Shown here: piece by piece, positions 6,183 through 35,468 of the stretch
Layout: each line of letters starts with the position of its first letter
Numbering within the stretch: the stretch's first letter is position 1
NCBI GenBank assembly: GCA_945787845.1
Contig: CALZJH010000005.1
Coordinates: forward strand, 62,001-126,000
From: an uncultured Woeseiaceae bacterium
GTDB lineage: Bacteria > Pseudomonadota > Gammaproteobacteria > Steroidobacterales > Woeseiaceae
DNA length: 64,000 nucleotides
Direction of reading: 5' to 3'
Made by a program: the position numbers and the translations under genes
The notes under the pieces: model-generated
What the model saw: the letters and a program-made list of their open reading frames with translations, nothing else
The model's database searches: none
What the model was told of the DNA's origin: nothing

Positions 6183-6189
6183 GAACAAA

Positions 6190-6217: not shown

Positions 6218-6235
6218 CGATTTGTCGTTACCAGC

Positions 6236-14627: not shown

Positions 14628-15260
14628 ATGACCACGCACGTCTACTTCGATCTCGACGGTACGCTGACCGACCCTTACGAGGGCATCACGAAGTGCATCC
14701 TGTATGCGCTCGATGAGCTCGGGTTCCCGCATCCCGACGATGACTACCTCTATAGCTGCATCGGCCCGCCCCTGTGGGACACTTTTCCGGAGCTGGTTGG
14801 CGACGACCTGACCAGAAAGGCGGTCGACCTGTACCGCGAACGTTTCGTCGAGGTTGGCTGGCAGGAAAACAAGCCTTACGACGGCATCGTGGACGCCCTC
14901 GATGCCATCGCCAGTGCCGGCCACCTGCTGTTCGTTGCAACAGCAAAGCCGCATAGGCATGCGGCGCGCATTGTCGAGCACTTCGGCATGGGCGAATTCT
15001 TCGCCACGGTTTATGGCAGCGAACTCGACGGCACGCGCGGCACCAAGACGGAGCTGCTGGAATTTGCAATTGGCAGGAACCCGGGCGGCGCGCGCCACGT
15101 TATGGTTGGCGATCGCAAGCACGACCTCATCGGCGCAGTGGCCAACCGGATGACGCCGGTCGGCGTTGCCTATGGCTACGGCTCGGTAGCGGAACTTGAG
15201 GGCGCCGGTGCATCGGCCATCGCCGCATCACCTGCCGACCTGCCAGGAATACTTATCTGA
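14628..15260 (+). CDS. HAD-family hydrolase (phosphoglycolate phosphatase-like)
   Basis: A 210-residue haloacid-dehalogenase phosphatase. Motif I FDLDGTLTD is at the N-terminus with both catalytic aspartates. Motif II is FVATAKPH near residue 102, and motif III/IV is VMVGDRKHDLIGA near 157. The cap resembles that of Gph/PpaX-like proteins (GIGPPLWDTFPEL corresponds to the usual GxPL segment). Likely substrates are phosphoglycolate, a nucleotide or another small phosphate. ATG 14628 puts motif I at residue 5; a TTG at 14613 would add five residues. It overlaps the convergent methyltransferase gene by 8 bases. Confidence 0.88.
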   Translation: MTTHVYFDLDGTLTDPYEGITKCILYALDELGFPHPDDDYLYSCIGPPLWDTFPELVGDDLTRKAVDLYRERFVEVGWQENKPYDGIVDALDAIASAGHLLFVATAKPHRHAARIVEHFGMGEFFATVYGSELDGTRGTKTELLEFAIGRNPGGARHVMVGDRKHDLIGAVANRMTPVGVAYGYGSVAELEGAGASAIAASPADLPGILI

Positions 15261-19966: not shown

Positions 19967-20809
19967 TCATGACTGCTCGAGTTCCATCCAGATTTCACGC
20001 ACCCAATCGCGGATCTGCAGCGACTCCTGCCAACGGTCGGACAATTCGTTTTGCTGCGCGTCGGTGATCGCGTAAGGCGGGGGGCCGAGTTCGCACAGAA
20101 ACACCAGGGTCGCGTCGTCGTCACTGCGCTCGCGCCACTGTGACATGCCGTACTTCCACCAGCCCTTGAAGATTTCGACCCACTCCTGGTGCTGCGGAAA
20201 ATCGATTTGAACCTGTACCTGTTCGCGGTTCGCAATGCGTCCCTGGAAGCAATCGGAGCGGTCCAGCACCGCTTGGATGTACTGCTCGTCGCGCTCCGGT
20301 ACAGGCGCGCGCAGCTCCCTGTCCACCACGAAATGGGAGAGGTCCGCGCACAGGCGCATCTCCGGGACGAGTTCCATGAGCTGCAGCGTGAAGTAAAGAT
20401 CGTTCAGCAGACCGTCCCGATGCGTTTCGAACAGCATCGGCATGCGCTTGCGCTTCGCCGTTCCGATCCAGTCACGTACTACCGGCACTGCATCTTCCGG
20501 CCGAATCGGCATAACACCGCTGATGACGTTTACCGAGCAGGCGTTCATGTCATTGGCGAAGTCGAGAAGCGGCTCCATATCATCCGGCGCGTAAGGAAAC
20601 GCGTTGACCATGCAACCGAGCCCGTACTTCTCGAACAGATATTGCTTGTCCAGGTTCTCCGCGACTTCCTCCACCGACGGATCCAGGCACATGCCATCGA
20701 AGCCGGCATCGGCCACCATCGCAAACGCCTCTTCGTCGCTACGCTCCGGCCGGTTCGGGTTGCGGAGCTGCATGCCCCAGAGCGACTGGTAGATCTCGAG
20801 CTTCTGCAC
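19967..20809 (-). CDS. Sugar phosphate isomerase/epimerase-like TIM-barrel protein
   Basis: A 280-residue protein of the AP-endonuclease-2/xylose-isomerase-like barrel family. Candidate metal ligands sit at strand ends: FETHRDGLLND (about residues 126-136), ADLSHFVVD (about 153-161), and the final FLCELGPPPYAIT (Glu). It probably isomerises, epimerises or dehydrates a polyol- or keto-acid-like intermediate. It is the last gene of the six-gene leftward operon and starts 1 base after the stop of the acyl-CoA synthetase. An intermediate of the amine pathway is a likely substrate, but none can be named. Confidence 0.82.
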   Translation of the reverse strand: MQKLEIYQSLWGMQLRNPNRPERSDEEAFAMVADAGFDGMCLDPSVEEVAENLDKQYLFEKYGLGCMVNAFPYAPDDMEPLLDFANDMNACSVNVISGVMPIRPEDAVPVVRDWIGTAKRKRMPMLFETHRDGLLNDLYFTLQLMELVPEMRLCADLSHFVVDRELRAPVPERDEQYIQAVLDRSDCFQGRIANREQVQVQIDFPQHQEWVEIFKGWWKYGMSQWRERSDDDATLVFLCELGPPPYAITDAQQNELSDRWQESLQIRDWVREIWMELEQS

Positions 20810-20810
20810 G

Positions 20811-22907
20811 TCAGCTTTCCCCAGGTTTGCGCCCTATGACCAGGGCATCCACAGCTACAGCGCCATGTCCCTGGACTATAACCGGGTTCACGTCGACCTC
20901 TGCCAGTTTGTCGGCAAGCGCCGCCACCATCTCGGAAAAACGTCTGGCCATGTCGCAAAACGCATCAATGTCTACAGCGGGCTTGCCACGAACGCCATCA
21001 AGTAGTGGCCTGAGCTTCAATCGATCGACACAGCGGCGCGCATGCGCCGCGTCGAACGGCGGCAATGCGAATTGCGCGTCGTCCAGCGTCTCGGCAAGTA
21101 CGCCGCCAAAACCGATCACAATGACCGGACCAAACTGAGGATCGTGTGTTGCGCCCAGCAGCATTTCCACGCCCTCAGCTGACATCGCCGCTACCAACAC
21201 ATCGTCACCCAGCTTCTCACTCATATCGGCATACGCGCTGCGCAATTGCGGCTCGTCAGCGATATCGAGCATCACACCGCCGTGCTCAGACTTGTGCAGC
21301 ATATCGTTTCCGGCCGCCTTCAACACGACCGGGTAACCCATGTCACTCGCGACCGCGACCGCAGCATTCTCGGTGTTGGCAAGAGCGCACCTGGATGTCT
21401 CAATGCCAAAAGCTGACAGCATTCCCAAGGCCTCGAACTCGGAGAGTGTCGAACCGGCTGCGAGCTTCGTCCGCCATTGCCTGACGGCTTTTTCATCGAC
21501 CACCGCGGGTATCGACTGTTCACGCAACAGGAAATCGCGATACGCAAACAGCGCACGAACGCCGGCCAGGAACTGGGCAACCCCATCGAGCACCGGGAAT
21601 CCTGCGTGTGTGCTAGTTACCACGGCACGGTCGTACCCTGTGCCCTGCCTTGCGGCGACAAGCGCAACGGGCTTGTCCGTATCCTGCCGGGCACGTTGCA
21701 TGTAGGCGAGATAACTCTCATAGATTTTGCCATCGGGTGCCCGGTCGTGAATGACGGCACCGAGCGCAGCGCCCGGATCCTGCATCATCAACGTCAGGCA
21801 ACGCGTGATGTTCTCCGCTGCATTGGGACCGCCGCGACTCCAGGCATCGAGGGGATTCACAGCAGGCAGCTCCGGGTCGAGTACGTCTTCGAGCGCTGTC
21901 ACGATATCGGGTGTGAGTTCGGTCAGCGGCACGCCGGTTTCGTCGGCCAGATCGACAAGCAGTTGGCGCTCACCACCCGAGTCGTGCAAGGTCACCAGTC
22001 CGCCGGCAGCGACCGGAAACATCTCCGCAAACATGATCAGCATCGTCGCTAACTCATCCTGGTCGCGAGCACGCTGCACCCCATAGCGGTCGAACAGCGC
22101 CTCATAGGTCGCATCAACGCCCGCCATTGCCCCCGAGTGTGACACGGCCAGCTCCGCCGATTTTTGAGTGCGCCCGACTTTGAGGGCAACTATGGGGATG
22201 CTGCGCTGCGCCGCTTTAGCCAGCGCCGCACGAAAGCCCTCGGGATGACGGGCCGTCTCGATGAACAGACCGACGGCTTGTGTCTCCGGAAGATCCAGAA
22301 CGAAGTCGAGGTACTCATCCATCGTGACGCTGAGCTCGTTGCCGGTGGAAACGGCAACGTTGATGCGCAGCCGTTCGTCGCAGTCGATGATGCCGGACAT
22401 GCCTGAGCCCGAGTGACTGATCAACGCCACGTTGCCGGGCGCCGTATGCGACGTGCTGTCGAAGCCGCACGTCCAGACGTGGTCGCGAACGTTGTAGAAC
22501 CCCATGCCGTTGGCACCACACACCAGCATGCCGGCATCGCGAATTTTCCTCCGGACACGCTCTCGCAGCGCCGGCTCTCTGTCGTTGTCGAGGTACAACG
22601 TCGACTGGATAACGGCGGCCGGCACGCCTGCCGCTATCGCTTCGTCGAGTGACGACTCGATGCGGTGATCGCCAACAGCGAAAATGACGCAGTCCGGTGT
22701 CTCCGGCAGATCGGCCAGCGACGCAAAACAACGGTGGCCCTGCAATTCGTGGTAGTTCGGATTGACCGGGTAGAGGCGGCCCTTGAAGCCCCCCAGCCCG
22801 AGGTTGCGAAGCGCCCAGTCGCCGACGGAGTCTACACGTGCCGACGCACCGACAACTGCGACCGATCGCGGCCGCAGTAGCGGGTCGAGGCGATGCTCCA
22901 CGCCCAA
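20811..22907 (-). CDS. NDP-forming acyl-CoA synthetase (acetate-CoA ligase, ADP-forming type)
   Basis: A 698-residue single-chain enzyme. The order is an N-terminal CoA-binding Rossmann domain (RPRSVAVVGASARVDSVGDWA, about residues 12-32), two succinyl-CoA-synthetase-like domains to about 450, with LHDSGGERQLL as the phosphohistidine-loop region, and a C-terminal ATP-grasp domain with GYPVVLKA and HKSEHGGV (about 520-550). It interconverts an acyl-CoA plus ADP/GDP and phosphate with free acid, CoA and ATP/GTP, so it can harvest energy from a CoA ester made in the pathway. It is the fifth gene of the leftward operon, 6 bases after the GcvT-like gene. Confidence 0.9.
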   Translation of the reverse strand: MGVEHRLDPLLRPRSVAVVGASARVDSVGDWALRNLGLGGFKGRLYPVNPNYHELQGHRCFASLADLPETPDCVIFAVGDHRIESSLDEAIAAGVPAAVIQSTLYLDNDREPALRERVRRKIRDAGMLVCGANGMGFYNVRDHVWTCGFDSTSHTAPGNVALISHSGSGMSGIIDCDERLRINVAVSTGNELSVTMDEYLDFVLDLPETQAVGLFIETARHPEGFRAALAKAAQRSIPIVALKVGRTQKSAELAVSHSGAMAGVDATYEALFDRYGVQRARDQDELATMLIMFAEMFPVAAGGLVTLHDSGGERQLLVDLADETGVPLTELTPDIVTALEDVLDPELPAVNPLDAWSRGGPNAAENITRCLTLMMQDPGAALGAVIHDRAPDGKIYESYLAYMQRARQDTDKPVALVAARQGTGYDRAVVTSTHAGFPVLDGVAQFLAGVRALFAYRDFLLREQSIPAVVDEKAVRQWRTKLAAGSTLSEFEALGMLSAFGIETSRCALANTENAAVAVASDMGYPVVLKAAGNDMLHKSEHGGVMLDIADEPQLRSAYADMSEKLGDDVLVAAMSAEGVEMLLGATHDPQFGPVIVIGFGGVLAETLDDAQFALPPFDAAHARRCVDRLKLRPLLDGVRGKPAVDIDAFCDMARRFSEMVAALADKLAEVDVNPVIVQGHGAVAVDALVIGRKPGES

Positions 22908-22913
22908 CCTCTT

Positions 22914-24110
22914 CTAGAAAGGTCCGGGTGGTGTCGCGCCGCGACGTGGCGGGAACCAGAACGGCTTGTCGACCACGGTCGCTTTCGCCATCTTTCGGTT
23001 CCAGTGCATCTCGCGCTGGTAGTAGATTTCTACCCAGACCGTATCGCCGGGCTTGCCGTGCGGCGTCTTGACCGTACCAAGCGCAATGTTTTGCTTGCAC
23101 ACCGGAGACCAGACAGCCGATGTCACGAAACCAATGTTGCCGCCGCTCGCTTTTGCATTCGAAAATATATAAGAGTGGTGCGCTTCCTTGTTGCCCTCGA
23201 TATCAAGCTTGACGAGACGCCAGGTCGAACCCCTTCGTTTTTCTTCAGCCAGTGCGCGACGACCGTTGAAGTTTGGTTTCTTGAAATCGACAAGCCACTC
23301 GAGGCCAAGCTCCAGCGGCGAGCGCGACACACCTGTGCGCACCGTCTCGTCAGCCGGCAGGAACTCCTCGTACGCCGCGAGGTAACCGGCCTCGATACGC
23401 GCCATGTCGAGCGCCGTCGTGCCGATGGCACGAATACCATGTAACTCGCCAGCCTTGAACAAGGCATCCCACAGTGCCTCGGCCTTGTCCGGATCGATCC
23501 AGAGCTCGTAGCCGAGGTCACCCGTAAAACCGGTCCGGGACACCATGAGTTCCGTTCCCTGGAAGTCGACGTGCATCAGGCCGAACGGCTTCAGCTCCGC
23601 GAGCCCCTCGAGGTTCATCTTGCTTAGCACGCTGTAGGATGTCGGACCCTGAACGGCCAGTGCCGCCACACCTTCCGTCTCGTGCGTAATCGTCACGTCG
23701 AAACCGATGGCCGCAGCTTGCAGCCAGGCAAAGTGTCGCTCCTGCGAACACAGGCGATACTCGCCTTCGCGAAGGTGGAAGATTGTGCCGTCGTCGATAA
23801 CCTGGCCGTTGTCATCGCACCAGACCGCGTAGGCAACACGTCCGGGCCGCACCTTGGCCATGTCACGCGTGACCAGGCGGTTCAGGTAGTCGAGTGCATC
23901 CGGGCCCGCGATGCGGTACTTCGTCATCGGCGTCAGATCAAATACGGCCGTCGCGTTGCGGATCGCAAAATATTCGGTATCCGAGCAGTAGAGCTGGTTC
24001 GCGCTCGAATACCCCTTCCACTCATGCCATTGATTGACGGTATCGAGTTTTTCAAGGCGTGAATGAAACGGCGTCTTCAGGCGCCCTTGATGTACAGGCT
24101 CTTGTTTCAT
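22914..24110 (-). CDS. GcvT-like aminomethyltransferase family protein
   Basis: A 398-residue protein that covers the folate-binding GcvT fold plus its C-terminal barrel. Typical segments are FDLTPMTKYRIAGPDALDYLNRL (about residues 57-79), VAALAVQGPTSYSVL (about 150-165), VSRTGFTGDLGYELW (about 195-210) and a LDMARIEAGYLA stretch. Relatives transfer a C1 group from glycine, dimethylglycine, sarcosine or DMSP to tetrahydrofolate. The presence without GcvH/P and beside a Rieske enzyme points to demethylation of a methylated amine or onium compound. It overlaps the next FAD enzyme by 4 bases. The exact substrate is unknown. Confidence 0.87.
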   Translation of the reverse strand: MKQEPVHQGRLKTPFHSRLEKLDTVNQWHEWKGYSSANQLYCSDTEYFAIRNATAVFDLTPMTKYRIAGPDALDYLNRLVTRDMAKVRPGRVAYAVWCDDNGQVIDDGTIFHLREGEYRLCSQERHFAWLQAAAIGFDVTITHETEGVAALAVQGPTSYSVLSKMNLEGLAELKPFGLMHVDFQGTELMVSRTGFTGDLGYELWIDPDKAEALWDALFKAGELHGIRAIGTTALDMARIEAGYLAAYEEFLPADETVRTGVSRSPLELGLEWLVDFKKPNFNGRRALAEEKRRGSTWRLVKLDIEGNKEAHHSYIFSNAKASGGNIGFVTSAVWSPVCKQNIALGTVKTPHGKPGDTVWVEIYYQREMHWNRKMAKATVVDKPFWFPPRRGATPPGPF

Positions 24111-25651
24111 GCTGCTTTCTCCCGCCTCAGGATCGTTCGCGCTGCGTTCCTTCCTGCCGCGCCGCTAACGCCACCACCTGGATGTGCCCCGGCGCCACAG
24201 AGGAACAGTCCTTCCACCGGCAAGGCGTACTGTGCCGCACCGTTTACAGGGCGCACAAACAGGAACTGGTCGAGCGTCAGCTCCGCGTGATGCCAGTGGC
24301 CGCCAGTGATGTGGAACTCGCGTTCGATGTCCGCCGGCGTCAAGAGCTCGCTGGCAGAAATACGCTGTTCAATATCCGGTGCGTACTTTGCGATGGTTTT
24401 TATGACCGTCTGCTTGAACGCTTCGCGGGCCGCATCGTCCCAACCCACTTTCAGGTTATAGGGAGCGTACTGCACAACGGCTGACATAACGTGCTTGCCG
24501 GTGGGCGCCAGGGACTCGTCGCGAAAACTCGGGAACGTCATTTCGACAACCGGTTCCGACGAGCACTCGCCGTACTTCGCCGGGTTGAAGGCGCGCTCGA
24601 CATAGTGCTCGTCGCCCGCAATGACGATGCGCTCACCGAGGTCTTTCTTGTCCAGGCCTTCAATCGACGGCAGGCCGTCAAGAGCGAGGTGCAATTTGGC
24701 GGCGTTGCCACGAGCGCGCAGGTGATGGATACGGCGGCCGAAACCCGTTTCGACGTGCTTGGCGCCGACGAGCTTCATAATCGTGCGCTTCGGATCAGCA
24801 TTCGAGATAACCGTGTAACTCGAGAAAACCTCGCCACCCTCGGTCTCAACGCCCGTCACGCGACCGTTGTCGATAACGATGCGTTTGACGGGCATGCCTG
24901 TGCGAATCGTCGCGCCTGCGCCGCGAGCGGCGTGTGCCAGCTCTTCACTCACGCTGCCCATGCCGCCCCGTGGAACCGCGACCCGTCCGTGATCGCCAGC
25001 CTGGCGATACAGGTAGGTCATGATGGTATTCGGCGAACGCGGCCCGAGGTGTGTGCCCAGTACCGAATCGAGACTGATGGCTCCCTTCAGTAGCGGACTG
25101 TCGAAGCGCTCGGTGACTTCGTCGTGCATATTCATGCCGATGAGCCGCAGGAACTCCTGCATTTCTTCTCTGCCGAGGCGACGAATATCGAACCCGAGCT
25201 GCGCCAGCATAAGCATATCTTTGAAATTCTTTGTGCCGAGTCGGGGCGGCCGCTTGTTGAGATACGTCCGCAGGAGATCGGCAAAGCGCGTCATGCGTTT
25301 GCGAAAGCGGCGGTACTGCTCGGCATCTTCGTCCGACACGCCGTCGACCGAATCGGCCGTGATGCGCAGGTGCTGTCCGTTTTCCGCGAGCGCGATGGTG
25401 CTCATATCTTCAGTGGCGAGCTGTGGCGATAACTTCAGCTCCTTGCGTACTTCCGGTTGCAGCTGGTACAGCAGGTGCGCACAGGCCGACGTTGAAAAAC
25501 CTTCTGCAAACTCGCGCGTCACCGCCGCACCGCCAACCTGGGCGTTGGCTTCCAGGACCAGCACGTTCATGCCGGCTTTGGCGAGCAATGCCGAGCACAC
25601 GAGACCGTTGTGCCCCGCACCTACCACTATGGCATCGTATCTATCAGTCAT
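24107..25651 (-). CDS. PYROXD2-like FAD-dependent oxidoreductase (operon copy 1)
   Basis: A 514-residue flavoprotein. VVGAGHNGLVCSALLAKAGMN is the N-terminal FAD motif (about residues 9-29). GGMGSVSEELAHAARGAGA lies near 240, and the C-terminal FAD motif GAGAHPGGGVSGAAGRNAA is just before the end. It belongs to the same group as the genes at 11562 and 25644. It is the third-from-upstream gene of the leftward operon, overlapping its neighbour copy by 8 bases and the GcvT-like gene by 4. Oxidation of a C-N or C-C bond of a pathway intermediate is the likely role. Confidence 0.88.
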   Translation of the reverse strand: MTDRYDAIVVGAGHNGLVCSALLAKAGMNVLVLEANAQVGGAAVTREFAEGFSTSACAHLLYQLQPEVRKELKLSPQLATEDMSTIALAENGQHLRITADSVDGVSDEDAEQYRRFRKRMTRFADLLRTYLNKRPPRLGTKNFKDMLMLAQLGFDIRRLGREEMQEFLRLIGMNMHDEVTERFDSPLLKGAISLDSVLGTHLGPRSPNTIMTYLYRQAGDHGRVAVPRGGMGSVSEELAHAARGAGATIRTGMPVKRIVIDNGRVTGVETEGGEVFSSYTVISNADPKRTIMKLVGAKHVETGFGRRIHHLRARGNAAKLHLALDGLPSIEGLDKKDLGERIVIAGDEHYVERAFNPAKYGECSSEPVVEMTFPSFRDESLAPTGKHVMSAVVQYAPYNLKVGWDDAAREAFKQTVIKTIAKYAPDIEQRISASELLTPADIEREFHITGGHWHHAELTLDQFLFVRPVNGAAQYALPVEGLFLCGAGAHPGGGVSGAAGRNAARTILRREKAA

Positions 25652-27260
25652 CGCCCCAGTTCTCCGGCACAGTGTTGGGCCTTTTCAGGTCTGAGAGAAT
25701 TTCTCGCGCAGCGTTGGCGCCCGGCGCCGCCATGATGCCGCCGCCCGGGTGATTGCTTGAACCACACATGTAGAGACCGTCGACGGGACCGCGGTACTGC
25801 GCATAGCCCGGAATCGGGCGATTGAAGAGCAGCTGGTCCATGGTCAGTTCGCCGTGGAAAATATTGCCCTCGGTTATCCCGATTTCGTCCTCGATGTCCT
25901 GCGGCGTTCGAATTTCCGCGTGCAGGATCAGGTCCTTGAAGTCCGGGCTGTAGTTCGCGATCTGGTTGATGACGGTCTGGCCGAAGGCTTCTTTCTCCTC
26001 CTGGGTCCAGCGCCGGCCGTCGATTTGATGCGGGCAGTACTGCACGAAACAGCTCATGAAGTGTTTGCCCGGGGGCGCCATCGTCGGGTCGCTGAGGGTC
26101 GGAATGACCATATCGATATACGGGTCCTGCGACCAGGTCCCGGCTTTCCAGTCGTCGTAGGCACGCTCCATGCGTTCCATCGAATCGATGAAATGCATGT
26201 CGCTATGATAAAGCGAGCTGCCTTCAGGCAGCGCCGGGAACGTCGGCATTCCGTCGAGCGCTATATTGACCTTGCCCGAGGAGCCACGAATCTTGAAATT
26301 TTCGACGCGACGATGAAATTTCTCGGGCAGGTCGCTCTTGTCCATGCAGGTCAGGAACGTACGTTTAACGTCCATGGCCGACACGACAATTTGGCCGTGG
26401 ACTTCATCGCCATTTTCCAGCGCGACACCCGTGACCTTGCCGTTCTTGACGATGATCTGGTCGACGCCTGACTCGGTTCGCAGTTCACCGCCTGCTGCCT
26501 GGTAGGCACCGGCTATCGCCTTGGATACGGCGCCGGTGCCGCCACGCGCGAAACCCCAGGAGCCGACGTTACCGTCGACGTCGCCCATGTAGTGATGCAG
26601 CAGAACGTACGCGGTGCCGGGCGAGTGAATACCGAGCGCAGTACCGATGATGCCACTACCCGAAAAAGCGGCCTTAATCACGTCGGTCTCGAAGTACTCG
26701 TCGAGGTACTCGGCGACGCTCATCGTCCAGAAACGAATTGTTTCGTACATCCGGTCTTCGCCCATGTTCATGAACTTGCCGCCGATGCGTGCGAGCTCCA
26801 TGAGATCTTTGGGTCTGAACGATGTCGGGTCGGGCGCCGTACTCAGCAGGAAGTCGCGGATGAAGCGGCACTGCCGCATCGTATCGGCCGAGTAGGTCTT
26901 GTAGGCATCGGCGTCATGACGGGAAAAACGCGCCATTTCGCGGTAGGCGACCTCGTGATCGTGATAGGAGCCGTAGTAGTCGCCGTTCTCCATGAACTGG
27001 ACCGAACCACCGTAAGGCGTGACCTGCAGTCCGTGCTTGTGCAGTTCCAGTTCGCGATAGATTTCGGGGCGCAGGAGACTGCAAACGTACGAGCAGTTCG
27101 AGTACCACCAGTCCTTGTAGAGATTGCGACTCACGGTGGCACCACCGATATAGTCGTTTTTCTCCACGCAGACGACATCGAGTCCGGCCTTCGCGAGAAA
27201 AGCCGCGTTGGTCAGGCCGTTATGGCCGGCACCAACAACAATTGCGTCATAGGTTTTCAT
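25644..27260 (-). CDS. PYROXD2-like FAD-dependent oxidoreductase (operon copy 2)
   Basis: A 538-residue flavoprotein. VVGAGHNGLTNAAFLAKAGLD is at residues 8-28, and the C-terminal motif CGSSNHPGGGIMAAPGANAA replaces the usual GAGTHPGGG with SSNHPGGG. The frame runs open to 27482, but that extension is within the aminotransferase; the ATG at 27260 begins directly before the FAD strand. It overlaps the aminotransferase by 14 bases and the sister gene by 8, so translation is probably coupled. Side by side the two copies may form a heteromer, or act on successive intermediates. Confidence 0.88.
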   Translation of the reverse strand: MKTYDAIVVGAGHNGLTNAAFLAKAGLDVVCVEKNDYIGGATVSRNLYKDWWYSNCSYVCSLLRPEIYRELELHKHGLQVTPYGGSVQFMENGDYYGSYHDHEVAYREMARFSRHDADAYKTYSADTMRQCRFIRDFLLSTAPDPTSFRPKDLMELARIGGKFMNMGEDRMYETIRFWTMSVAEYLDEYFETDVIKAAFSGSGIIGTALGIHSPGTAYVLLHHYMGDVDGNVGSWGFARGGTGAVSKAIAGAYQAAGGELRTESGVDQIIVKNGKVTGVALENGDEVHGQIVVSAMDVKRTFLTCMDKSDLPEKFHRRVENFKIRGSSGKVNIALDGMPTFPALPEGSSLYHSDMHFIDSMERMERAYDDWKAGTWSQDPYIDMVIPTLSDPTMAPPGKHFMSCFVQYCPHQIDGRRWTQEEKEAFGQTVINQIANYSPDFKDLILHAEIRTPQDIEDEIGITEGNIFHGELTMDQLLFNRPIPGYAQYRGPVDGLYMCGSSNHPGGGIMAAPGANAAREILSDLKRPNTVPENWGDD

Positions 27261-28572: not shown

Positions 28573-28593
28573 GGGGCGGGGCAATAAGCAAAA

Positions 28594-28613
28594 ATGAATG
28601 AGTATTCATTCAT
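28594..28613. promoter_or_regulatory. Palindromic operator between the divergent operons
   Basis: ATGAATGA (28594-28601), spacer GTAT, and TCATTCAT (28606-28613) form perfect 8-base arms. This is the size and AT-rich type of site bound by BetI/TetR dimers. It lies 22 bases from the aminotransferase start and 20 from the regulator start. A TAGTAT (28613-28618) could be the rightward -10 box, so repressor binding would cover both promoters. The regulator encoded next to it is the obvious ligand; this is inference. Confidence 0.75.
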
Positions 28614-28632
28614 AGTATGGCAGAATCGGGAC

Positions 28633-29259
28633 ATGGGAGCCACCGCAAAAAGCGCGCGTCGGACGGCCAGCCGCAAGCTGCGGCGTCAGCAACTCATTGA
28701 CGCGACCATCAAGTGCATTGCCCGTAACGGCCTGGGCAGCACATCGATCGGTGATGTGGCGAAGGAAGCCGGCCTGTCGCAAGGGATCGTCAACCTCCAC
28801 TTTGAAAGCAAGGACAACCTGCTCACCGAAACGTTGCGTTTTGTTGTCGACGAGTACAAGACGCAATTCAACAGGACGTTCGATGAGGCCGGCCCTGGCG
28901 CCGCGGAAAAATTGCTGGCCCTGATTCAGCTGGACCTGCACCCTTCGATCATGAATCGACAAAAAACCCCCGTGTGGTTCGCGTTCTGGGGCGAGGTCAA
29001 ATCGCGCCCGACCTATCGCAGGATCTGCGACACTCGAGACAAGTATTACGACAAGGTCTTCGAGGAACTTTGCGCGACGATTATTGCCGAGGGCAAGTAT
29101 AAGAACGTGTCGGCCTCATCGGTCGCGGTTGCGTTGAACGCGATGACCAACGGCATGTGGCTGTCTTACCTGATCAGCCCAAGGTCGTTCGACCGCGACC
29201 AGGCCAACACTGCCGTGTCGGACCTCCTCCGCACCTACTTCCCGAATCATTACTCCTGA
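28633..29259 (+). CDS. BetI-like TetR-family transcriptional regulator
   Basis: A 208-residue regulator. The helix-turn-helix is at about residues 32-52 (TSIGDVAKEAGLSQGIVNLHF), preceded by RRQQLIDATIKCIARNGL, which is close to the BetI N-terminus. The C-terminal ligand domain has the BetI-type pattern with PVWFAFWGEVKSRPTYR. BetI represses choline-to-betaine genes and is released by choline, so this protein may sense a quaternary amine. The frame is open to 28594, but that ATG is in the operator itself; ATG 28633 is taken. It is the first gene of the rightward operon and probably represses both operons. Confidence 0.88.
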   Translation: MGATAKSARRTASRKLRRQQLIDATIKCIARNGLGSTSIGDVAKEAGLSQGIVNLHFESKDNLLTETLRFVVDEYKTQFNRTFDEAGPGAAEKLLALIQLDLHPSIMNRQKTPVWFAFWGEVKSRPTYRRICDTRDKYYDKVFEELCATIIAEGKYKNVSASSVAVALNAMTNGMWLSYLISPRSFDRDQANTAVSDLLRTYFPNHYS

Positions 29260-29269
29260 CGAGAGCAGC

Positions 29270-30430
29270 ATGCAGATTCCTATCAGTGACGAAGCACGCA
29301 GATGGCAGGGCATCGCCCGGCAATACGCCGACGAGTACCTGCAGCCGCACGAAGTCGAGGCGGAGCTTAGTGACGGCGTGCTGCCCGATGAAATAACGCA
29401 GCGCAACAAGAAGCGGGCCATCGAACTGGGGTTCACGGCGATCGACGTACCCAGGAGCCATGGGGGGCTCGAGCTGCCGATGGAAACGCAGGTGGCGCTC
29501 TGGGAACAGCTGGGGCGTGTCACCAATGCGTTGTCCTGGTGTTTTCCCGAAGCGCAGTCGTGGATGTTCGACGCATGCTCGGACGAGCAGCTGGAGCGGT
29601 ACATCCTGCCAATGATGCGCGGCGAACAGAAAGAGTGTTACGCGATCACCGAGTCGGGGCCGGGCTCTGATATCTCCAGCCTGGAGGCGACGGCGACGCG
29701 CGACGGTGACGACTATGTGCTCAATGGTGAGAAGTGGTACGTCACGAGCGGCAACCTCGCGAGCTTCATCTGGTTCCAGGCGAATTTGCCCGACGAAGAT
29801 GACCAGGCACTGTTCCTCGTCGACCAGGGAACACCGGGCATCGAAACCGTCGCCAATCCGAAATTCAGCCATACATACGCTTCGCATCACCCCACGTACA
29901 GGTTCAACGATGTACGTATACCGGCAGCAAACCGTGTCGGGCAGCCCGGCGACGGTATGGCATTCACGCATTCGTGGTTTCGGCACGAACGGCTTATGAT
30001 TGCCGCGCGCAGCTGTGGCGCGATGGCAAGACTGATCGAGGAAGCGACGGCGTTTGCTAACGAGCGCATGGTCGACGGCGCGCCGCTGAGCGAGAAACAG
30101 GCGATCCAGTTCATGCTCGCGGACTGCACCACGGAGCTCTACGCCGCACGCCTCATGACCTACGATAGCGCTCGGGCTGACGACCGGGCCGACGATCTCA
30201 AGGCAGTGCATGCGCGCTGCTCGATGGCAAAGCTGTTTGTCTCCGAGGCCGCTAATCGCGTTGCCGACCGGGCCGTGCAGATATTTGGTGGACGTGGCTA
30301 CATGCGCGAGAACGTCGCGGAGCGTTTTTTCCGCGAACTCCGGGTCGACCGCATTTGGGAAGGCACGAGCGAGATACAACGGCTTATAATCGCTCGATCG
30401 CTCCTGAAGCGCGGCCTGGACGGTATGTGA
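29270..30430 (+). CDS. Acyl-CoA dehydrogenase
   Basis: A 386-residue flavoenzyme. The signatures are CYAITESGPGSD (about residues 123-135, FAD contact), WYVTSGNLASFI (about 158-169) and the C-terminal FGGRGYMREN with RIWEGTSEIQR, in which Glu364 occupies the catalytic base position. It introduces a 2,3-double bond into an acyl-CoA and passes electrons to ETF. It begins 10 bases after the regulator and its stop overlaps the transporter gene start (GTGA). Beside the acyl-CoA synthetase of the other operon it makes an acyl-CoA intermediate likely, similar in logic to carnitine (CaiA) breakdown. Confidence 0.92.
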   Translation: MQIPISDEARRWQGIARQYADEYLQPHEVEAELSDGVLPDEITQRNKKRAIELGFTAIDVPRSHGGLELPMETQVALWEQLGRVTNALSWCFPEAQSWMFDACSDEQLERYILPMMRGEQKECYAITESGPGSDISSLEATATRDGDDYVLNGEKWYVTSGNLASFIWFQANLPDEDDQALFLVDQGTPGIETVANPKFSHTYASHHPTYRFNDVRIPAANRVGQPGDGMAFTHSWFRHERLMIAARSCGAMARLIEEATAFANERMVDGAPLSEKQAIQFMLADCTTELYAARLMTYDSARADDRADDLKAVHARCSMAKLFVSEAANRVADRAVQIFGGRGYMRENVAERFFRELRVDRIWEGTSEIQRLIIARSLLKRGLDGM

Positions 30431-31542
30431 CGAAAACACAACTCAAGCTCGCGAGCTGCGTTGCAGTTCTGCTCACTGTCAGTGCCTGCAGCGGTACGTC
30501 GGACCAGGCCGCACAAAACGAGAACGTCGTCAACGTCTACAACTGGGCGGACTACATCAGCCCCGATGTCGTCGAGCAGTTCGAAGCCGAGACAGGCATC
30601 AAGGTCAATTACGATCTCTACGACTCGTCCGAGGTCGTCGACGTAAAGCTGCTGACCGGAAATAGCGGTTATGACGTCGTTGTTCACAGCAATCGCTTTT
30701 CGACGCGCCTGGCCCCGATCGGCATTTACGAGGAACTCGACATGAGCCGCTTCGAGAACCTCGGCAATCTCGACCCCGGCATCATGGCGAAAATCGATAT
30801 CTACGAAAAGGTCAGGGGCTACTTCATTCCCTATCACTGGGGCACGACTGGTTACGCCTGGAATGTAGAGATGGTCCGCGAGCGGCTCCCCGACCATCCC
30901 ATGGACAGTAGCGACGTCGTCTTCGACCCCGAAATCGTGGCCAAGCTTGCCGATTGCGGCGTCAGCCTGCTCGACGGCACTACAGACCTGTTTCCCATGG
31001 CGCTCGCCTACCTTGGACGGGACCCGACGTCGCTGAGTCATGACAACATCAAGGCGGCGGAAGCGCAGCTTAAAAAGGTCCAGCCTTTGATTCGCTACTT
31101 CAGCAACCAGAAGATGATGTCGGACCTGCCCAACCGCGAGATTTGTGTCGCGATGAGCTGGTCGGGCGATTATGCGCAGGCGGCTGCCAGAGCTGCCGAA
31201 GCAGGACTCGATATCGAGCTGGAATACACCGTACCAAAGGAAGGTTCCGGCCTCTGGATTGACGGCCTCTATATTCCAGCCGACGCCAGGCACAAGGACA
31301 ATGCCTACAAGTTCATCGACTTCCTGATGCGGGCCAAAGTCGCGGCAACCAACGCCAATCATTCGTACTACGCCAATGCGAATCGGGCATCGTGGGAGTA
31401 CGTCGAGCCCTGGCTGTTGAATGACCCCAGGATCTATCCCGACGAGGAGACCTGGAAACGCTTGTACCCGATCGCCTCCCCCGCACCGAAAGAAGAGCGA
31501 ACCCTGACGCGGGCTTTTGCGAGAGTAAAGAGCGGCATATGA
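30427..31542 (+). CDS. Polyamine-type ABC transporter, substrate-binding lipoprotein
   Basis: A 371-residue PotD/PotF-type binding protein. GTG 30427 starts within the stop of the dehydrogenase. A lipobox VSAC puts the lipid on Cys21. Then come VVNVYNWADYISPDVVEQF and EAETGIKVNYDLYDSSE, which are the hallmark N-terminal strands of PotD/PotF. It catches a small cationic compound in the periplasm. PotF-like proteins bind putrescine, spermidine, or related betaines; the regulon suggests a methylated amine. The downstream genes complete the transporter. Confidence 0.92.
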   Translation: MTKTQLKLASCVAVLLTVSACSGTSDQAAQNENVVNVYNWADYISPDVVEQFEAETGIKVNYDLYDSSEVVDVKLLTGNSGYDVVVHSNRFSTRLAPIGIYEELDMSRFENLGNLDPGIMAKIDIYEKVRGYFIPYHWGTTGYAWNVEMVRERLPDHPMDSSDVVFDPEIVAKLADCGVSLLDGTTDLFPMALAYLGRDPTSLSHDNIKAAEAQLKKVQPLIRYFSNQKMMSDLPNREICVAMSWSGDYAQAAARAAEAGLDIELEYTVPKEGSGLWIDGLYIPADARHKDNAYKFIDFLMRAKVAATNANHSYYANANRASWEYVEPWLLNDPRIYPDEETWKRLYPIASPAPKEERTLTRAFARVKSGI

Positions 31543-32630
31543 AAGACTTCATTCGGATTCGCGGTCTGAGCAAGAAGTTTGGCAATTTCCTTGCCGTCGA
31601 CAATGTGGACCTGGACATTGAGAGGGGCGAGCTGTTCTCGATACTCGGCGGCTCTGGCTGCGGCAAGACGACCTTGCTGCGCATGCTGGCTGGCTTCGAA
31701 CTGCCGACCTCCGGCACGATCGAGATCGACGGCGTCGATGTTACGAACCAGCCCCCCTATGAACGTCACGTCAATATGATGTTCCAGTCTTACGCCGTGT
31801 TTCCCCATATGACGGTCGAGAAGAACATCGGCTACGGTCTGCGCAAGGAAAGAATGCCGCGACCTGAAATCGCGAAGCGTGTCGACGAGATGCTCGAACT
31901 CGTGCAGCTTCAGGAATTGCGTTCGCGCAAACCGGACCAGCTCTCAGGCGGTCAGCGTCAGCGTGTAGCCCTCGCCCGCGCGTTGATCAAACAGCCGAAA
32001 GTCCTGCTGCTCGACGAGCCACTTGCCGCGCTCGACAAGAAACTGCGTGAACGCACGCAATTCGAACTTATGAACATCCAGGATGAACTGGGCATCACGT
32101 TCGTCGTGGTTACTCACGACCAGGAAGAGGCGATGACCCTGTCGTCGCGCATTGCCGTAATGGACCGCGGCCAGTTCCGGCAGATCGGCACACCCAAGGA
32201 AATCTACGAGTTTCCGTCCAATCGCTTTGTCGCGGAGTTCATCGGCACGATTAATACGTTCAGGGGGCACGTCGCGGCGAAAGAAGAAGACAGCATCAGT
32301 GTCGACTCAAGCGAAGCCGGTGTGACGCTGACCGCCCTTGGCAAGCAACTCGTCGAGGAAGGACAGGAAATCGAGATTGCCATTCGCCCCGAGAAGATCT
32401 TCATCAGCAAGGAGAAACCGGACGACGGTGACGCCGTGTGCCTTCCCGGTGTTGTTGACGACCTCGGCTACCGGGGCAACCGGTCGCTTTACCGAATCCG
32501 TCTTGAGAGCGGCAAGATTGTGCAGGTCAGCTCGCAGAACAGGCGCCGATCCGTTACCCGTTTTCTCGAATGGGACGACAGGGTGTGGATCTCGTGGCGA
32601 CCGCGTAGCGCCGTGGTGCTCCTTGATTAA
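31539..32630 (+). CDS. Polyamine-type ABC transporter, ATP-binding protein
   Basis: A 363-residue PotA/PotG-type ATPase. Walker A GGSGCGKT is at 37-44, the Q-loop QSYAVFP at 83-89, the signature LSGGQ at 135-139 and Walker B LLLDE at 156-160; a TOBE regulatory domain fills the last 120 residues. It overlaps the binding protein by 4 bases (ATGA). It energises import through the two permeases that follow. Confidence 0.95.
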   Translation: MKDFIRIRGLSKKFGNFLAVDNVDLDIERGELFSILGGSGCGKTTLLRMLAGFELPTSGTIEIDGVDVTNQPPYERHVNMMFQSYAVFPHMTVEKNIGYGLRKERMPRPEIAKRVDEMLELVQLQELRSRKPDQLSGGQRQRVALARALIKQPKVLLLDEPLAALDKKLRERTQFELMNIQDELGITFVVVTHDQEEAMTLSSRIAVMDRGQFRQIGTPKEIYEFPSNRFVAEFIGTINTFRGHVAAKEEDSISVDSSEAGVTLTALGKQLVEEGQEIEIAIRPEKIFISKEKPDDGDAVCLPGVVDDLGYRGNRSLYRIRLESGKIVQVSSQNRRRSVTRFLEWDDRVWISWRPRSAVVLLD

Positions 32631-32644
32631 GGCCGCTTAGCACT

Positions 32645-33487
32645 ATGTGGCGCAAGGCAATCATCGCGGCACCTTACCTGTGGCTACTGGTCTTTTTTCT
32701 TGCGCCATTTGCCATTGTTCTCAGGATCAGCCTGGCGGACCCGGTAATCGCACAGCCGCCCTACTCCCCGACGTACTCACCTGACAGTTTCACGTTCCTC
32801 TTAACGGACAAGCTGTACGCGATTACCTACCTGCGCTCGGTCGTCATGGCGGCCGGTGCCACTCTTCTGTGCCTGTTGCTGGGATTCCCGATGGCCTACG
32901 GAATCGCACGCTGCAGCCCCGCAACACGCAGCATGCTGCTACTGCTGATCATATTGCCCTTCTGGATCTCATTCCTGCTGCGCGTGTACGCGTGGATGGG
33001 ACTAATGAACAACTACGGCGCCATCAACAACCTGTTGATGTGGCTGGGCGTCGTCGACCAGCCTGTGCAACTCATGTACACCGACTTCGCGATTTTTGTC
33101 GGCCTGGCCTACTCCTATTTGCCGTTCATGATTCTGCCCTTATACGCCACGCTCGAGCGCATGGATCTCGACCTCGTTGAAGCCGCGCAAGACCTCGGCG
33201 CATCGCGCTCCCGTGCGTTCTGGGATGTGACCTGGCCCCTCGCGCGCCCCGGCGTCATCGCAGGCTGCCTGTTGGTGTTCATTCCGGCGATGGGCGAGTA
33301 CGTCATCCCCTACCTGCTCGGCGGGTCGGAGTCCCTGTTGATCGGCCGTGTCCTGTTCGACGAGTTCTTCGTCAACCGGGACTGGCCGTTGGCGTCCGCC
33401 GTGGCGGTCATCCTGCTACTGCTGCTCGTGGTGCCAATCGTGCTCCTGCAGCGCTACCAGGCACGCGACCAGGAAGGAACGGCATGA
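32645..33487 (+). CDS. Polyamine-type ABC transporter permease (PotB/PotH-like)
   Basis: A 280-residue inner-membrane permease with six hydrophobic helices, beginning AAPYLWLLVFFLAPFAIVL. The EAA loop EAAQDLGASRSRAFWDVTWPL (about residues 179-199) docks to the ATPase. It ends 4 bases inside the next permease. It forms the heteromeric channel with the following gene. Confidence 0.94.
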   Translation: MWRKAIIAAPYLWLLVFFLAPFAIVLRISLADPVIAQPPYSPTYSPDSFTFLLTDKLYAITYLRSVVMAAGATLLCLLLGFPMAYGIARCSPATRSMLLLLIILPFWISFLLRVYAWMGLMNNYGAINNLLMWLGVVDQPVQLMYTDFAIFVGLAYSYLPFMILPLYATLERMDLDLVEAAQDLGASRSRAFWDVTWPLARPGVIAGCLLVFIPAMGEYVIPYLLGGSESLLIGRVLFDEFFVNRDWPLASAVAVILLLLLVVPIVLLQRYQARDQEGTA

Positions 33488-34278
33488 ACCGTCAATCGCG
33501 ATTCATCATTTCGGTCCTGGCGTTCGGCTACGCATTCCTCTACATCCCGCTCGTGCTGGTCATCGTTTACTCCTTTAACGACTCGAGCATCGCGACGGTC
33601 TGGGGCGGCTTCTCGACCCGCTGGTACGGGGAGCTATTGCGGAACGATCAAATTCTCGATGCCGCCCTGCTGAGCCTGCGCATCGCGCTGACCTCGGCAA
33701 CGATGGCGACGGTACTGGGGACGATGGCCGGGCTCGCGCTCGCGCGCTTCAGGCGTTTCCGGGGGCGCACCTTGTTTTCGGGCATGATCACGTCACCCAT
33801 GGTCATGCCGGAAGTCATCACCGGCCTGTCATTGCTGTTGTTGTTCGTGACCCTGCAGCAACTAACCGGGTGGCCCGGCCAGCGCGGATTCGGCACGATT
33901 ACGATTGCCCATACGACTTTCTCGATGGCCTACGTAGCCATTATCGTGCAGTCGCGCCTCATGGCGATGGATGAATCACTCGAGGAAGCCGCGATGGATC
34001 TGGGCGGGCATCCGCTGCGCGTTATCTTCGACATCACGCTGCCCCTTATCGCGCCGGCCATGATTGCCGGTTGGCTGCTCGCATTCACCCTGTCACTCGA
34101 CGACCTTGTCATCGCGAGCTTTGTTTCGGGGCCAGGCAGCAGCACGCTGCCCATGTATATCTTCTCGAAAGTGAAGCTGGGCGTGTCGCCGGATATCAAC
34201 GCGCTCGCGACCCTGATTATTCTGTTCATCAGTATTGGCGTGCTGTTGTCCTGGCTGGTCGCACGCCGTCGCGTCTAG
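33484..34278 (+). CDS. Polyamine-type ABC transporter permease (PotC/PotI-like)
   Basis: A 264-residue inner-membrane permease. The N-terminus ISVLAFGYAFLYIPLVLVIVYSFN is typical of PotC/PotI, and the EAA loop is EEAAMDLGGHPLRVIFDITLPL (about residues 160-181). It is the last gene of the rightward operon. Its stop overlaps the convergent Rieske gene by CTAG. Confidence 0.94.
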   Translation: MNRQSRFIISVLAFGYAFLYIPLVLVIVYSFNDSSIATVWGGFSTRWYGELLRNDQILDAALLSLRIALTSATMATVLGTMAGLALARFRRFRGRTLFSGMITSPMVMPEVITGLSLLLLFVTLQQLTGWPGQRGFGTITIAHTTFSMAYVAIIVQSRLMAMDESLEEAAMDLGGHPLRVIFDITLPLIAPAMIAGWLLAFTLSLDDLVIASFVSGPGSSTLPMYIFSKVKLGVSPDINALATLIILFISIGVLLSWLVARRRV

Positions 34279-35468
34279 TCCTTAAGTTCGCGCAGGATCC
34301 ATTCGATATACGAGCGCTCTTCCTTTTCCATTGCGGAGAACGGGCCGGGTTCGTAGTACTTCGAGTGCACGCCTTTCGAGTTATTCACGATGATCTCCTT
34401 GTCGGAAATCGTCGTGATGTCCCATAACCAGGTCAACTCGTCCACGTCGTAGTCTTTGCCCTCAACCGCATCACCCCGCACCATCCAGTAGATCTCACAA
34501 CGGGAGTTGTTGTGGTCCATCGGCGTAAAGACATAGGCAACAACGTGATCGCTGTAGGCAAGCATGAATGAGAACGGTCCGAAGTTGAAATCCGACGCGC
34601 CGCGATCATAGTCGGTGAACTCACCGAGCAGCGGGGCCACAGGACTGCCGTCCTTGCTCCCGGTCTTGTACTTTTCGAACAATGCCGTGCGGCTGTATGC
34701 GAACCCCATCTCACCCGGCGGCGCGGCCGCATCAACCCGATTGATGTAAATGTCCTTAACACCGCACGCGGCCATACGTTCTTCCATGTGCCGCTGTACC
34801 CGATCCCTGCGCTCATCGCCCAGCATCAGCGTATGCATGCGCGCGTACTCGGGATGCGCCGTCGCACAGTGATAGCATTCCTGGTAGTTCTCGATGGAGA
34901 GCTTCCAGTTCGCGGGGATATCGTAGGTTTTTTGCGCCGCCACCTTGAGATTTTCGAAGCCAAACATCGCCATAGGCTCGGCCAATTCGGTGCGGCAAGC
35001 CTCTACCGACAAGGGATCGTCCGTGAAGCAGACAAACACGAGTCCGTGGATTACCTCGACGGAAACGCGCTTCAGCGAGCGGGACTCCTTGTCAAAATCC
35101 TCCGGCATGTCACGCGCAGCAATGAGCCCACCGTCGAGATCGTACATCCAGCCGTGGTAGGGGCAGGCGAACTTGTCAGTGTGGCCGCTCTCTTCGAGAC
35201 ATACGAGCGAACCGCGATGACGACAGACATTGGCAAAACCGTTCAGCTCGCCGTCCTGGTTACGCACGATAATCGCGGATTCGCCGGCAACGTTCAGTAC
35301 GCGAAAATCCCCCGGCTCGGCGAACTGGGAAACATGGCCAGCGAAAATCCAGTTCCGGTAAATGATGCGTTCGAGCTCACGCGCATACACACCGGGGTCG
35401 GTATAGAAGCGTTGATCAAGTGAGTAACCGGGCTTGTGTTCTGCTATGAGTTCGTCGATAGAACGCAT
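34275..35468 (-). CDS. Rieske non-heme iron oxygenase alpha subunit (quaternary-ammonium type)
   Basis: A 397-residue oxygenase. The Rieske cluster is bound by Cys82-x-His84 and Cys102-x2-His105. The mononuclear iron site shows His200 and His205. The residue that links the two sites, Asp in ring-hydroxylating dioxygenases, is Glu197 here, as described for carnitine oxygenase CntA and choline/betaine-type monooxygenases. N-demethylation or oxidative C-N cleavage of a trimethylammonium compound is therefore likely. No reductase gene is adjacent, so electrons must come from elsewhere. It is convergent with the ABC importer and monocistronic. Confidence 0.9.
   Translation of the reverse strand: MRSIDELIAEHKPGYSLDQRFYTDPGVYARELERIIYRNWIFAGHVSQFAEPGDFRVLNVAGESAIIVRNQDGELNGFANVCRHRGSLVCLEESGHTDKFACPYHGWMYDLDGGLIAARDMPEDFDKESRSLKRVSVEVIHGLVFVCFTDDPLSVEACRTELAEPMAMFGFENLKVAAQKTYDIPANWKLSIENYQECYHCATAHPEYARMHTLMLGDERRDRVQRHMEERMAACGVKDIYINRVDAAAPPGEMGFAYSRTALFEKYKTGSKDGSPVAPLLGEFTDYDRGASDFNFGPFSFMLAYSDHVVAYVFTPMDHNNSRCEIYWMVRGDAVEGKDYDVDELTWLWDITTISDKEIIVNNSKGVHSKYYEPGPFSAMEKEERSYIEWILRELKD

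Follow-up and report, generated by a model that had tools for sequence, protein, structure and literature searches.

A TetR-associated gene cluster of an uncultured Woeseiaceae bacterium with a possible role in importing and degrading an N-methylated diamine or polyamine

In the known pathways of methylated-amine breakdown, oxidation of N-methyl groups with one-carbon (C1) transfer is performed by enzymes of the dimethylglycine/sarcosine type. In glycine betaine catabolism, a Rieske oxygenase (GbcAB) acts on the quaternary amine, two flavin-dependent oxidations follow, and the C1 units are passed to folate. Trimethylamine N-oxide (TMAO) demethylase, Tdm, carries a C-terminal GcvT domain. Here, we describe a 13-gene cluster located in a 64,000-nucleotide stretch (hereafter, the window) of the genome of an uncultured Woeseiaceae bacterium (assembly GCA_945787845.1; contig CALZJH010000005.1, positions 62,001 to 126,000; genome of 3.68 Mb in 33 contigs, completeness 99.79%). 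By analogy, this cluster follows the logic of glycine betaine catabolism, but two PYROXD2/CrtO-like enzymes of the amine-oxidase fold (FADA and FADB) and a separate GcvT-like protein stand in place of DgcAB, SoxABDG or the fused DMGDH/SARDH enzymes. We consider, with about even confidence, that the cluster is a regulon under TetR control through which an N-methylated diamine or polyamine is taken up and degraded. That it encodes a folate-linked methylated-amine pathway of some kind is, perhaps, quite probable.

The preliminary description of this DNA had placed 13 genes in three units around one palindrome, and all open reading frames (ORFs) were indeed found on the expected strands around a near-perfect operator (Table 1). 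Read outward from the operator, the leftward unit comprises a class-III aminotransferase (AT), FADA, FADB, the GcvT-like protein, an acyl-CoA synthetase (ACS), and a TIM-barrel protein (TIM); the rightward unit comprises a TetR-family regulator, an acyl-CoA dehydrogenase (ACAD), and the PotF-, PotA-, PotH-, and PotI-like proteins, with the Rieske oxygenase gene convergent to the latter. Domain searches assigned 12 of the 13 proteins to the expected family. The packing is tight as described, but overlaps do not occur at every junction: seven of the 11 junctions overlap by 4–14 bp (AT/FADA, 14; FADA/FADB, 8; FADB/GcvT, ACAD/PotF, PotF/PotA, PotH/PotI and the convergent PotI/Rieske, 4 each, for ACAD/PotF on the assumption that GTG 30427 is the PotF start) and four are gapped by 1–14 bp (GcvT-ACS, 6; ACS-TIM, 1; TetR-ACAD, 10; PotA-PotH, 14). 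The genes, their conservation, the operator common to the parts, the family signatures, and the pocket residues reported below are direct readings of the sequences.

Relatives were collected by scanning named genomes with an alignment of eight FADA sequences; the best 80 of 587 relatives gave 79 distinct loci. These loci are interrelated and were found through FADA, so the counts do not represent independent events. FADB was located immediately 3' of FADA in 76 of the 77 loci with enough downstream sequence, and the triad FADA-FADB-GcvT was unbroken in 67 of 68 testable loci, L084 being the single exception in both counts. The AlphaFold2 model of FADA (48-sequence alignment, mean pLDDT 86.1) displayed the phytoene desaturase/flavin amine oxidase fold, which does not decide the substrate. 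Both flavoproteins scored below the carotenoid models (FADA 274.6 and FADB 247 bits against a cut-off of 1000 for NF045689; 126.4 and 145.6 against 238.1 for TIGR02734). In relatives, FADA-type proteins are annotated merely as 'NAD(P)/FAD-dependent oxidoreductase'.

The closest solved chain to the GcvT-like protein was the GcvT domain of Tdm. Unlike in Tdm, the window protein is stand-alone beside two flavoproteins, and it scored 259.9 bits against the Tdm cut-off of 1100. It belongs to the GCV_T superfamily by both of its domains, but is below the curated GcvT models (173.6 vs 235.85 bits, TIGR00528; 232.9 vs 300, NF001567). The Asp of the DD motif, which has a catalytic role in GCV_T proteins, is present; the window has DDGT, and the strict motif was identified in 61 of 69 relatives. 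The genome contains three GCV_T matches, in open frames of 413, 416 (the cluster gene), and 280 amino acids. One of the two matches outside the cluster is high-scoring and was taken as the canonical GcvT; the other is weak. Neither frame is long enough for a flavin fusion, and known folate demethylases with a GCV_T domain fused to a flavin subunit (DMGDH, SARDH, SoxA type) were therefore not found in this genome.

The claim that the genes belong together is borne out by gene order in other genomes and by an operator that can be footprinted across families. All 13 genes were present, with their order kept, in L069, L073, L086, and the congeneric genome G167, with contig-limited copies in L068 and L083. 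G167 has an insert of about 3 kb before the Rieske gene. Matches to the PotI-like sequence of this congener (L006:4620-6079) fell in two frames that overlap, a pattern that a frameshift or an assembly error would produce. Among the matches listed, the nearest named FADA relatives were from Woeseiaceae and unclassified gammaproteobacterial metagenome-assembled genomes, on which basis the host is of the Woeseiaceae type. Record titles place carriers in, among others, Woeseiaceae, Halieaceae, Porticoccaceae, Pseudohongiella, Steroidobacteraceae, Mesorhizobium, and Phyllobacterium, with plasmid-borne copies in Shinella, Rhizobium, Parasedimentitalea, and Fuscovulum; named strains include those of Shinella zoogloeoides, Phyllobacterium pellucidum, Mesorhizobium tianshanense, and gammaproteobacterium HTCC2148. 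In an even draw of 398 genomes of the phylum, a FADA match reached E 1e-80 or better in 54; besides the window's own, only ten of these matches shared at least 57% identity, and the rest were below 40% and look like paralogs. At the same threshold, 211 of 296 genomes of the same order matched FADA, paralogs included.

In the 18-base operator palindrome TGAATGAGTATTCATTCA, all pairs but one match, the exception being positions 8 and 11. A single exact site for the 16-base core (one N) was found in the genome, and the other two sites carried two mismatches. The operator was the sole site at up to three mismatches in the window; shuffles expect 0.94 matches. The likely ATG starts of AT (28572) and TetR (28633) are each about 20 bp from it. 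The pattern TGAATGANNATTCATTCA, at up to two mismatches, was present in the common upstream region of 41 of 52 divergent TetR pairs (TetR opposite AT or FADA). These pairs were drawn from the 79 loci and four plasmid loci, excluding L099 and L133 (no divergent pair), loci without a TetR match, and the window. Six further matches were found in 950 kb of the same loci, and none in 1040 mononucleotide-shuffled windows. The preliminary description had termed the regulator BetI-type. This holds at the domain level (PF13977, 66.7 bits against a cut-off of 27) but not at that of the curated BetI models, both of which it fails to reach (112.2 vs 201.3 bits, TIGR03384; 113.4 vs 118, NF001978).

All 11 divergent pairs without TGAATGANNATTCATTCA (L134 and L141-L150) are alphaproteobacterial by title, and eight of them had a related palindrome at one mismatch or less. 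Across the 276 kb of 12 alphaproteobacterial loci, this variant occurred at 17 sites at the same stringency, whereas 60 permuted patterns averaged 0.017; the pattern was derived from the same loci, so that this frequency is partly circular and the positions relative to genes are the independent part. The sites were located 62–148 bp before FADA, i.e. before the triad (seven loci; L150 is an eighth, with two mismatches, at 60 bp), at the AT2 start between this second class-III aminotransferase and a divergent Pot permease (seven loci), and 8–15 bp before a Rieske gene (L142, L149, and L150). The rhizobial parts are split over three transcription units yet have a common operator, which is the strongest evidence that transporter, aminotransferase, Rieske oxygenase, and triad serve one pathway. 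As judged from these sites, the triad, the AT/Pot transporter genes, and the Rieske gene form one predicted regulon. In Halieaceae-type loci (L110:321, L119:368, L137:11), the operator also precedes a gene pair, an Asp/Asn-hydroxylase-like family followed by the family f25, which suggests that this pair may be a further part of the regulon. The former family is PF05118, as scanned in L123; members were called in L110 and L137, but none in L119.

The importer shares with PotFGHI its fold, the aromatic box, and the proximal primary-amine site. The PotF-like protein aligned with Escherichia coli PotF over its full length, and the ATPase exceeded the cut-off of the polyamine ABC ATPase subfamily (416.3 vs 355.6 bits, TIGR01187). 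The permeases had PotH and PotI as their best models, but none of the four equivalog cut-offs was reached (PotF 334.9 of 636, PotG 448.3 of 613, PotH 347.1 of 489, PotI 350 of 476). Residues of PotF were compared in 24 sequences, namely the window protein and 23 relatives with more than 35% identity; the rhizobial PotD/F-like proteins fall outside this set. In PotF, S38, D39, and D247 are described as holding the proximal primary amine, with W37, W244, and F276 as the aromatic box (PMC8666671). W37, D39, Y40, W244, D247, R254, D278, and Y314 were invariant in all 24 sequences, and position 276 was Trp throughout (F276W); S38 was not conserved and is Ala in the window. At the distal site, Glu185 was replaced in every sequence (Asp in 12, Ser in nine, Thr in three) and E184 was also absent, with the usual uncertainty of a loop alignment. 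A proximal amine site that is kept and a distal site that is altered suggest that one end of the ligand is an ordinary primary amine while its far end is modified, and we infer that the modification is of the kind a methylated amine would give.

Two other explanations are touched by this pocket. One is ordinary use of putrescine or spermidine with unusual enzymes, GcvT and the Rieske protein having side roles. The polyamine-type transporter and pocket would suit it, and so would the presence of putrescine oxidase and monoamine oxidases among the structural neighbors of FADA. However, E185 is reported as at least 96% conserved among 250 polyamine transporter sequences (PMC8666671) and is absent here, and unmethylated polyamines would give no C1 unit, whereas GcvT is a nearly constant part of the triad; we regard this explanation as improbable. 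The other is a carboxylated quaternary amine of the gamma-butyrobetaine, trimethyllysine, trimethylaminovalerate or carnitine type, whose carbon chain would be handled by the CoA ligase and the acyl-CoA dehydrogenase. An Arg at distal position 87 of the window PotF would fit a carboxylate, but this residue occurs in only three of the 24 sequences, and the invariant D39, D247, and D278 favor a cationic amine.

The ACS and ACAD bear on the same question. ACAD resembles acryloyl-CoA reductase (202.3 bits) and crotonobetainyl-CoA dehydrogenase (181.2 bits), ACS is encoded beside the triad, and an enoyl-CoA hydratase was present in six of the 79 loci, all of which agree with a carboxylated substrate; ACAD is, however, far under the CaiA cut-off of 540 bits, and on balance we judge a carboxylated quaternary amine unlikely. 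All NCBIfam matches of ACS were below their cut-offs, and AT was below those of HemL and GntE.

With Group V Rieske oxygenases (CntA, Stc2, GbcA, choline monooxygenase, OxyBAC) the window protein shares the Rieske motif, the Glu at the CntA E205 position, the Cys-X-X-Cys pair beside the mononuclear iron, and the His and Asp iron ligands. Its closest solved chains were 3vca, 4qup, and 3n0q, followed by carnitine monooxygenase CntA. The database names of 3vca and 4qup are ring-hydroxylating dioxygenase and demethylase; we take both to be the stachydrine demethylase Stc2, of subgroup Vb. The window stretch E-N-Y-Q-E-C-Y-H-C aligns with CntA Y203, the bridging E205, and the cysteine pair C206/C209. 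The role of E205 as bridging Glu is described for CntA (PMC7948474), and the cysteine pair is pointed out as a feature of Group V, which comprises the quaternary-ammonium oxygenases (PMC10952381). The motif CxH...CxxH was present in all 48 cluster-linked Rieske proteins, the window's included, and the full signature (bridging Glu, Cys pair, and Tyr at CntA 203) in 40 of the 48, all of which keep the catalytic Asp. An aromatic residue at position 203 is described as setting subgroup Va apart and as holding the ammonium by a pi-cation contact (PMC7948474). The window protein and all 40 signature carriers have Tyr at this position and 3vca has Asn, so that the window protein is nearest to 3vca/4qup by score yet has the Va-type residue. 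By its signature, it is of the Group V type and is predicted to act on quaternary ammonium.

Glycine betaine itself has to be considered here. The triad and the Rieske oxygenase might replace GbcAB, DgcAB, and SoxABDG, with the Rieske enzyme forming dimethylglycine, FADA sarcosine, and FADB glycine, GcvT collecting the C1 units, and the Pot transporter and aminotransferase serving a precursor that ends in glycine betaine. The best NCBIfam model of the Rieske protein was GbcA (NF058607; 296.1 bits, 298.2 in the genome search), and none of the only three GCV_T matches lies in a long fused frame. The compact operons of relatives mentioned below would also suit this route. Yet the score is far under the GbcA cut-off of 670 bits, GbcA as well as Stc2 are reported without an aromatic residue at CntA position 203 (PMC7948474), and a simple betaine route needs no aminotransferase, acyl-CoA synthetase or polyamine-type importer. 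We hold a glycine betaine route to be rather unlikely.

The genes surrounding the triad in relatives favor a diamine or polyamine. The 79 loci contained AT in 22 cases, PotA in 28, PotH in 28, PotI in 25, ACAD in 26, and ACS in 26, the Pot genes overall ranging from 25 to 28. Added or exchanged genes encode glutamine-synthetase-like (GS-like) proteins (18), PuuB-like DAO proteins (12), PuuC-like aldehyde dehydrogenases (12), the class-III aminotransferases AT2 (11) and AT3 (5), and class-I glutamine amidotransferases (5). Each neighbor family was scanned via one representative. These classes, including an amine transaminase, are those of Puu/Spu putrescine catabolism, which also speaks for ordinary polyamine use. 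The window cluster, however, contains the aminotransferase only, PuuA-D genes being absent from its ORF list and from the domain and family scans, and the representatives of the GS-like, DAO, aldehyde dehydrogenase, and glutamine amidotransferase families were all under the Puu equivalog cut-offs. To our knowledge, Rieske and GcvT proteins are foreign to Puu. The GS-like protein scored higher with glutamine synthetases (154.7 bits) than with glutamate-methylamine ligase (108.5 bits). The rhizobial AT2 matched omega-transaminases including putrescine and polyamine:pyruvate transaminases, its best match being named simply 'aminotransferase'. On the FADA tree (47 of the 79 loci and the window, rooted with the window's FADB on a very long branch), the GS/AT2 label required five changes (shuffled mean 12.4; as low in none of 500 shuffles). 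A single origin of the AT-containing type was not supported: the AT labels required 12 changes (mean of 14.4 after shuffling, with 54 of 500 shuffles as low).

The preliminary description had named no substrate. The reactions and the substrate itself are still a matter of deduction, but the substrate class can be narrowed: both the importer and the genes found in place of, or in addition to, the aminotransferase indicate a diamine or polyamine, and choline, carnitine, and glycine betaine are less favored. One end of such a substrate would probably be a free primary amine; the opposite end would bear a methylated nitrogen, probably a quaternary one. The reactions given here, the sequence in which they occur, and the kind of substrate are all inferred. 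Import of the methylated amine would fall to the PotF-like protein and PotAHI, and the class-III aminotransferase would remove its primary amine to give an aldehyde. An aldehyde dehydrogenase encoded outside this cluster may convert the aldehyde to the acid; such an enzyme was present inside the cluster in seven of 15 AT-carrying loci of at least 17 kb, where it would provide the oxidation step that the window lacks. The Group V Rieske oxygenase would attack the quaternary ammonium group, one methyl probably leaving as formaldehyde. FADA and FADB would then oxidize the remaining N-methyl groups, and the stand-alone GcvT would move the C1 unit to tetrahydrofolate. Finally, the NDP-forming acyl-CoA synthetase may activate the acid and the acyl-CoA dehydrogenase may start beta-oxidation-like steps. 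The earlier claim of methylated-amine catabolism fits GcvT, the Group V Rieske protein, and the flavin amine-oxidase-type fold, from which its chemistry is deduced. In favor of this reading, the genome also showed neither a demethylase with a fused GCV_T domain nor, at E 1e-10, a further Rieske protein of the GbcA type.

Several observations weigh against the proposed breakdown of an N-methylated diamine or polyamine. It is only the enzyme families that suggest methyl groups on the substrate, and in the NCBIfam scan no enzyme of the window cluster was above any curated cut-off that names its reaction. The top structural match of the FADA model is a carotenoid desaturase, with renalase, putrescine oxidase, and monoamine oxidases at lower Z. 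The Rieske gene had been counted in the regulon, which the operators it has in common with the triad support in rhizobia, but the operator scan of the window found none upstream of its own Rieske gene. The rhizobial Rieske protein is among the eight of 48 without the signature and keeps the Glu only, without the Cys pair and Tyr; likewise, the single rhizobial binding protein searched is a distant PotD/F relative, although within the polyamine-binding family. The cluster contains no Rieske reductase. A Fer2 search of the genome gave nine matches elsewhere, and the proteins at the two loci inspected presumably resemble PaaE and NqrF, as judged by eye. Among the 46 loci of at least 17 kb, some Pot gene was present in 26, some AT or GS-like gene in 32, and a Rieske gene in 30. 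Moreover, several Woeseiaceae have a compact Rieske-FADA-FADB-GcvT operon without a transporter or aminotransferase, which suggests that the triad may have a different methylated amine, or more than one compound, as its substrate. Compact Rieske-FADA-FADB operons were seen in L072, L074, L077, L078, L081, and L082, with GcvT where the contig allows.

No described pathway with this gene set was found in the open-licence literature, in agreement with the preliminary description; a preprint or a subscription paper may exist. What is probably new is methylated-amine catabolism with demethylating flavoenzymes from another fold family and, for such a system, the substrate class. It is a tentative possibility that the cluster serves to break down N-methylated (quaternary) polyamines, for example the silica-bound ones of diatoms, or methylated plant diamines, and that FADA-FADB-GcvT is a new class of folate-coupled amine demethylase on the amine-oxidase/phytoene-desaturase fold, which arose independently of the dimethylglycine/sarcosine enzymes and is now distributed among marine gammaproteobacteria and rhizobia. 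Methylated amines are described as an important part of marine dissolved organic nitrogen (PMC13390433). If the proposed function is right, proteins annotated as 'NAD(P)/FAD-dependent oxidoreductase' would be reassigned to amine degradation, and the cluster would supply markers for a source of nitrogen and one-carbon units that is currently uncounted. The conserved regulon offers a testable transporter, an operator, and a proposed three-gene module for folate-linked demethylation, and named strains are among its carriers.

Table 1. Coordinates of the cluster genes and the operator, counted from the first nucleotide of the window.
Feature	Position	Strand	Basis and remarks
TIM, xylose-isomerase-like TIM barrel, sugar isomerase/epimerase fold, lineage-specific accessory	19967..20809	-	Model fold; Pfam sub-threshold
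ACS, predicted NDP-forming acyl-CoA synthetase, single chain	20811..22907	-	CoA_binding_2, Succ_CoA_lig, ATP-grasp_5; start TTG 22907 uncertain
GcvT-like, predicted stand-alone folate-dependent C1 transferase, third triad gene	22914..24110	-	GCV_T 203.9 bits, GCV_T_C 44.9; DDGT motif
FADB, PYROXD2/CrtO-like FAD oxidoreductase, second triad gene	24107..25651	-	Amino_oxidase domain
FADA, PYROXD2/CrtO-like FAD oxidoreductase, first triad gene	25644..27260	-	ATG 27260; AlphaFold2 model fold
AT, class-III aminotransferase, GSAM-like branch	27247..28584	-	Aminotran_3; TTG 28584, ATG 28572 more likely
Operator palindrome TGAATGAGTATTCATTCA, between divergent AT and TetR	28595..28612	.	One mismatched pair
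TetR-family regulator, BetI-type C-terminal domain	28633..29259	+	TetR_N, TetR_C_6; longest ORF, from 28594, overlaps operator
ACAD, acyl-CoA dehydrogenase	29270..30430	+	Acyl-CoA_dh domains; NCBIfam equivalogs below cut-off
PotF-like solute-binding protein	30427..31542	+	phmmer E 1e-85 to E. coli PotF 1a99; GTG 30427 assumed, lipobox-like start by eye
PotA/PotG-like ABC ATPase	31539..32630	+	Above TIGR01187 cut-off
PotH-like permease	32645..33487	+	PotH is best model, below cut-off
PotI-like permease	33484..34278	+	PotI is best model, below cut-off
Rieske oxygenase, Group V (quaternary-ammonium) signature ENYQECYHC	34275..35468	-	Rieske, Ring_hydroxyl_A; convergent to PotI

The TIM-barrel protein, which the preliminary description had placed in the pathway, is encoded in the cluster but is a lineage-specific extra. 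Its Pfam match was sub-threshold (19.4 vs 31.1 bits), and the predicted structure has a sugar isomerase/epimerase fold. The gene was present in only six of the 79 loci, all with FADA at 86–97% identity. As a pathway marker it matched three of 274 genomes of the class, its own included; it was dropped because one of these, G214, had no other cluster gene on the 19.5-kb contig concerned.

A second gene group occupies positions 1944-13151 of the window. It encodes a protein with an f25-like part, an MTHFR-like protein, a methyltransferase, a TonB receptor, a TPR-sulfotransferase, and a PYROXD2-like flavoprotein without a GcvT neighbor. Relatives of f25, the TPR-sulfotransferase, and the TonB receptor occur in triad-bearing loci of other families. 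A homocysteine S-methyltransferase (15253-16185; 343.2 bits, above the cut-off of 215) is encoded about 4 kb from the cluster, and the MTHFR-like protein (3782-4660) about 15 kb from it; the two might possibly serve C1 disposal. Relatives of the former were located downstream of the cluster in L069, L070, L071, and L086, and those of the latter in L084, L088, and L095. Positions 16254-19199 encode a 981-aa protein with an N-terminal Xaa-Pro-dipeptidase-like part followed by an amidohydrolase-like part. Its full-length relative in L086 shares 90% identity, and L069-L071 have a shorter protein that matches one part. In Fuscovulum, the cluster runs on into a gene of the dimethylsulfoniopropionate (DMSP)-lyase family (L148:24647-25498) and an amidohydrolase gene, near two Rieske genes and a Pot transporter. 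In Shinella, a gene for an NADH:flavin oxidoreductase-type protein of 678 aa (PF00724; L150:18639-20675) adjoins the triad on the opposite strand.

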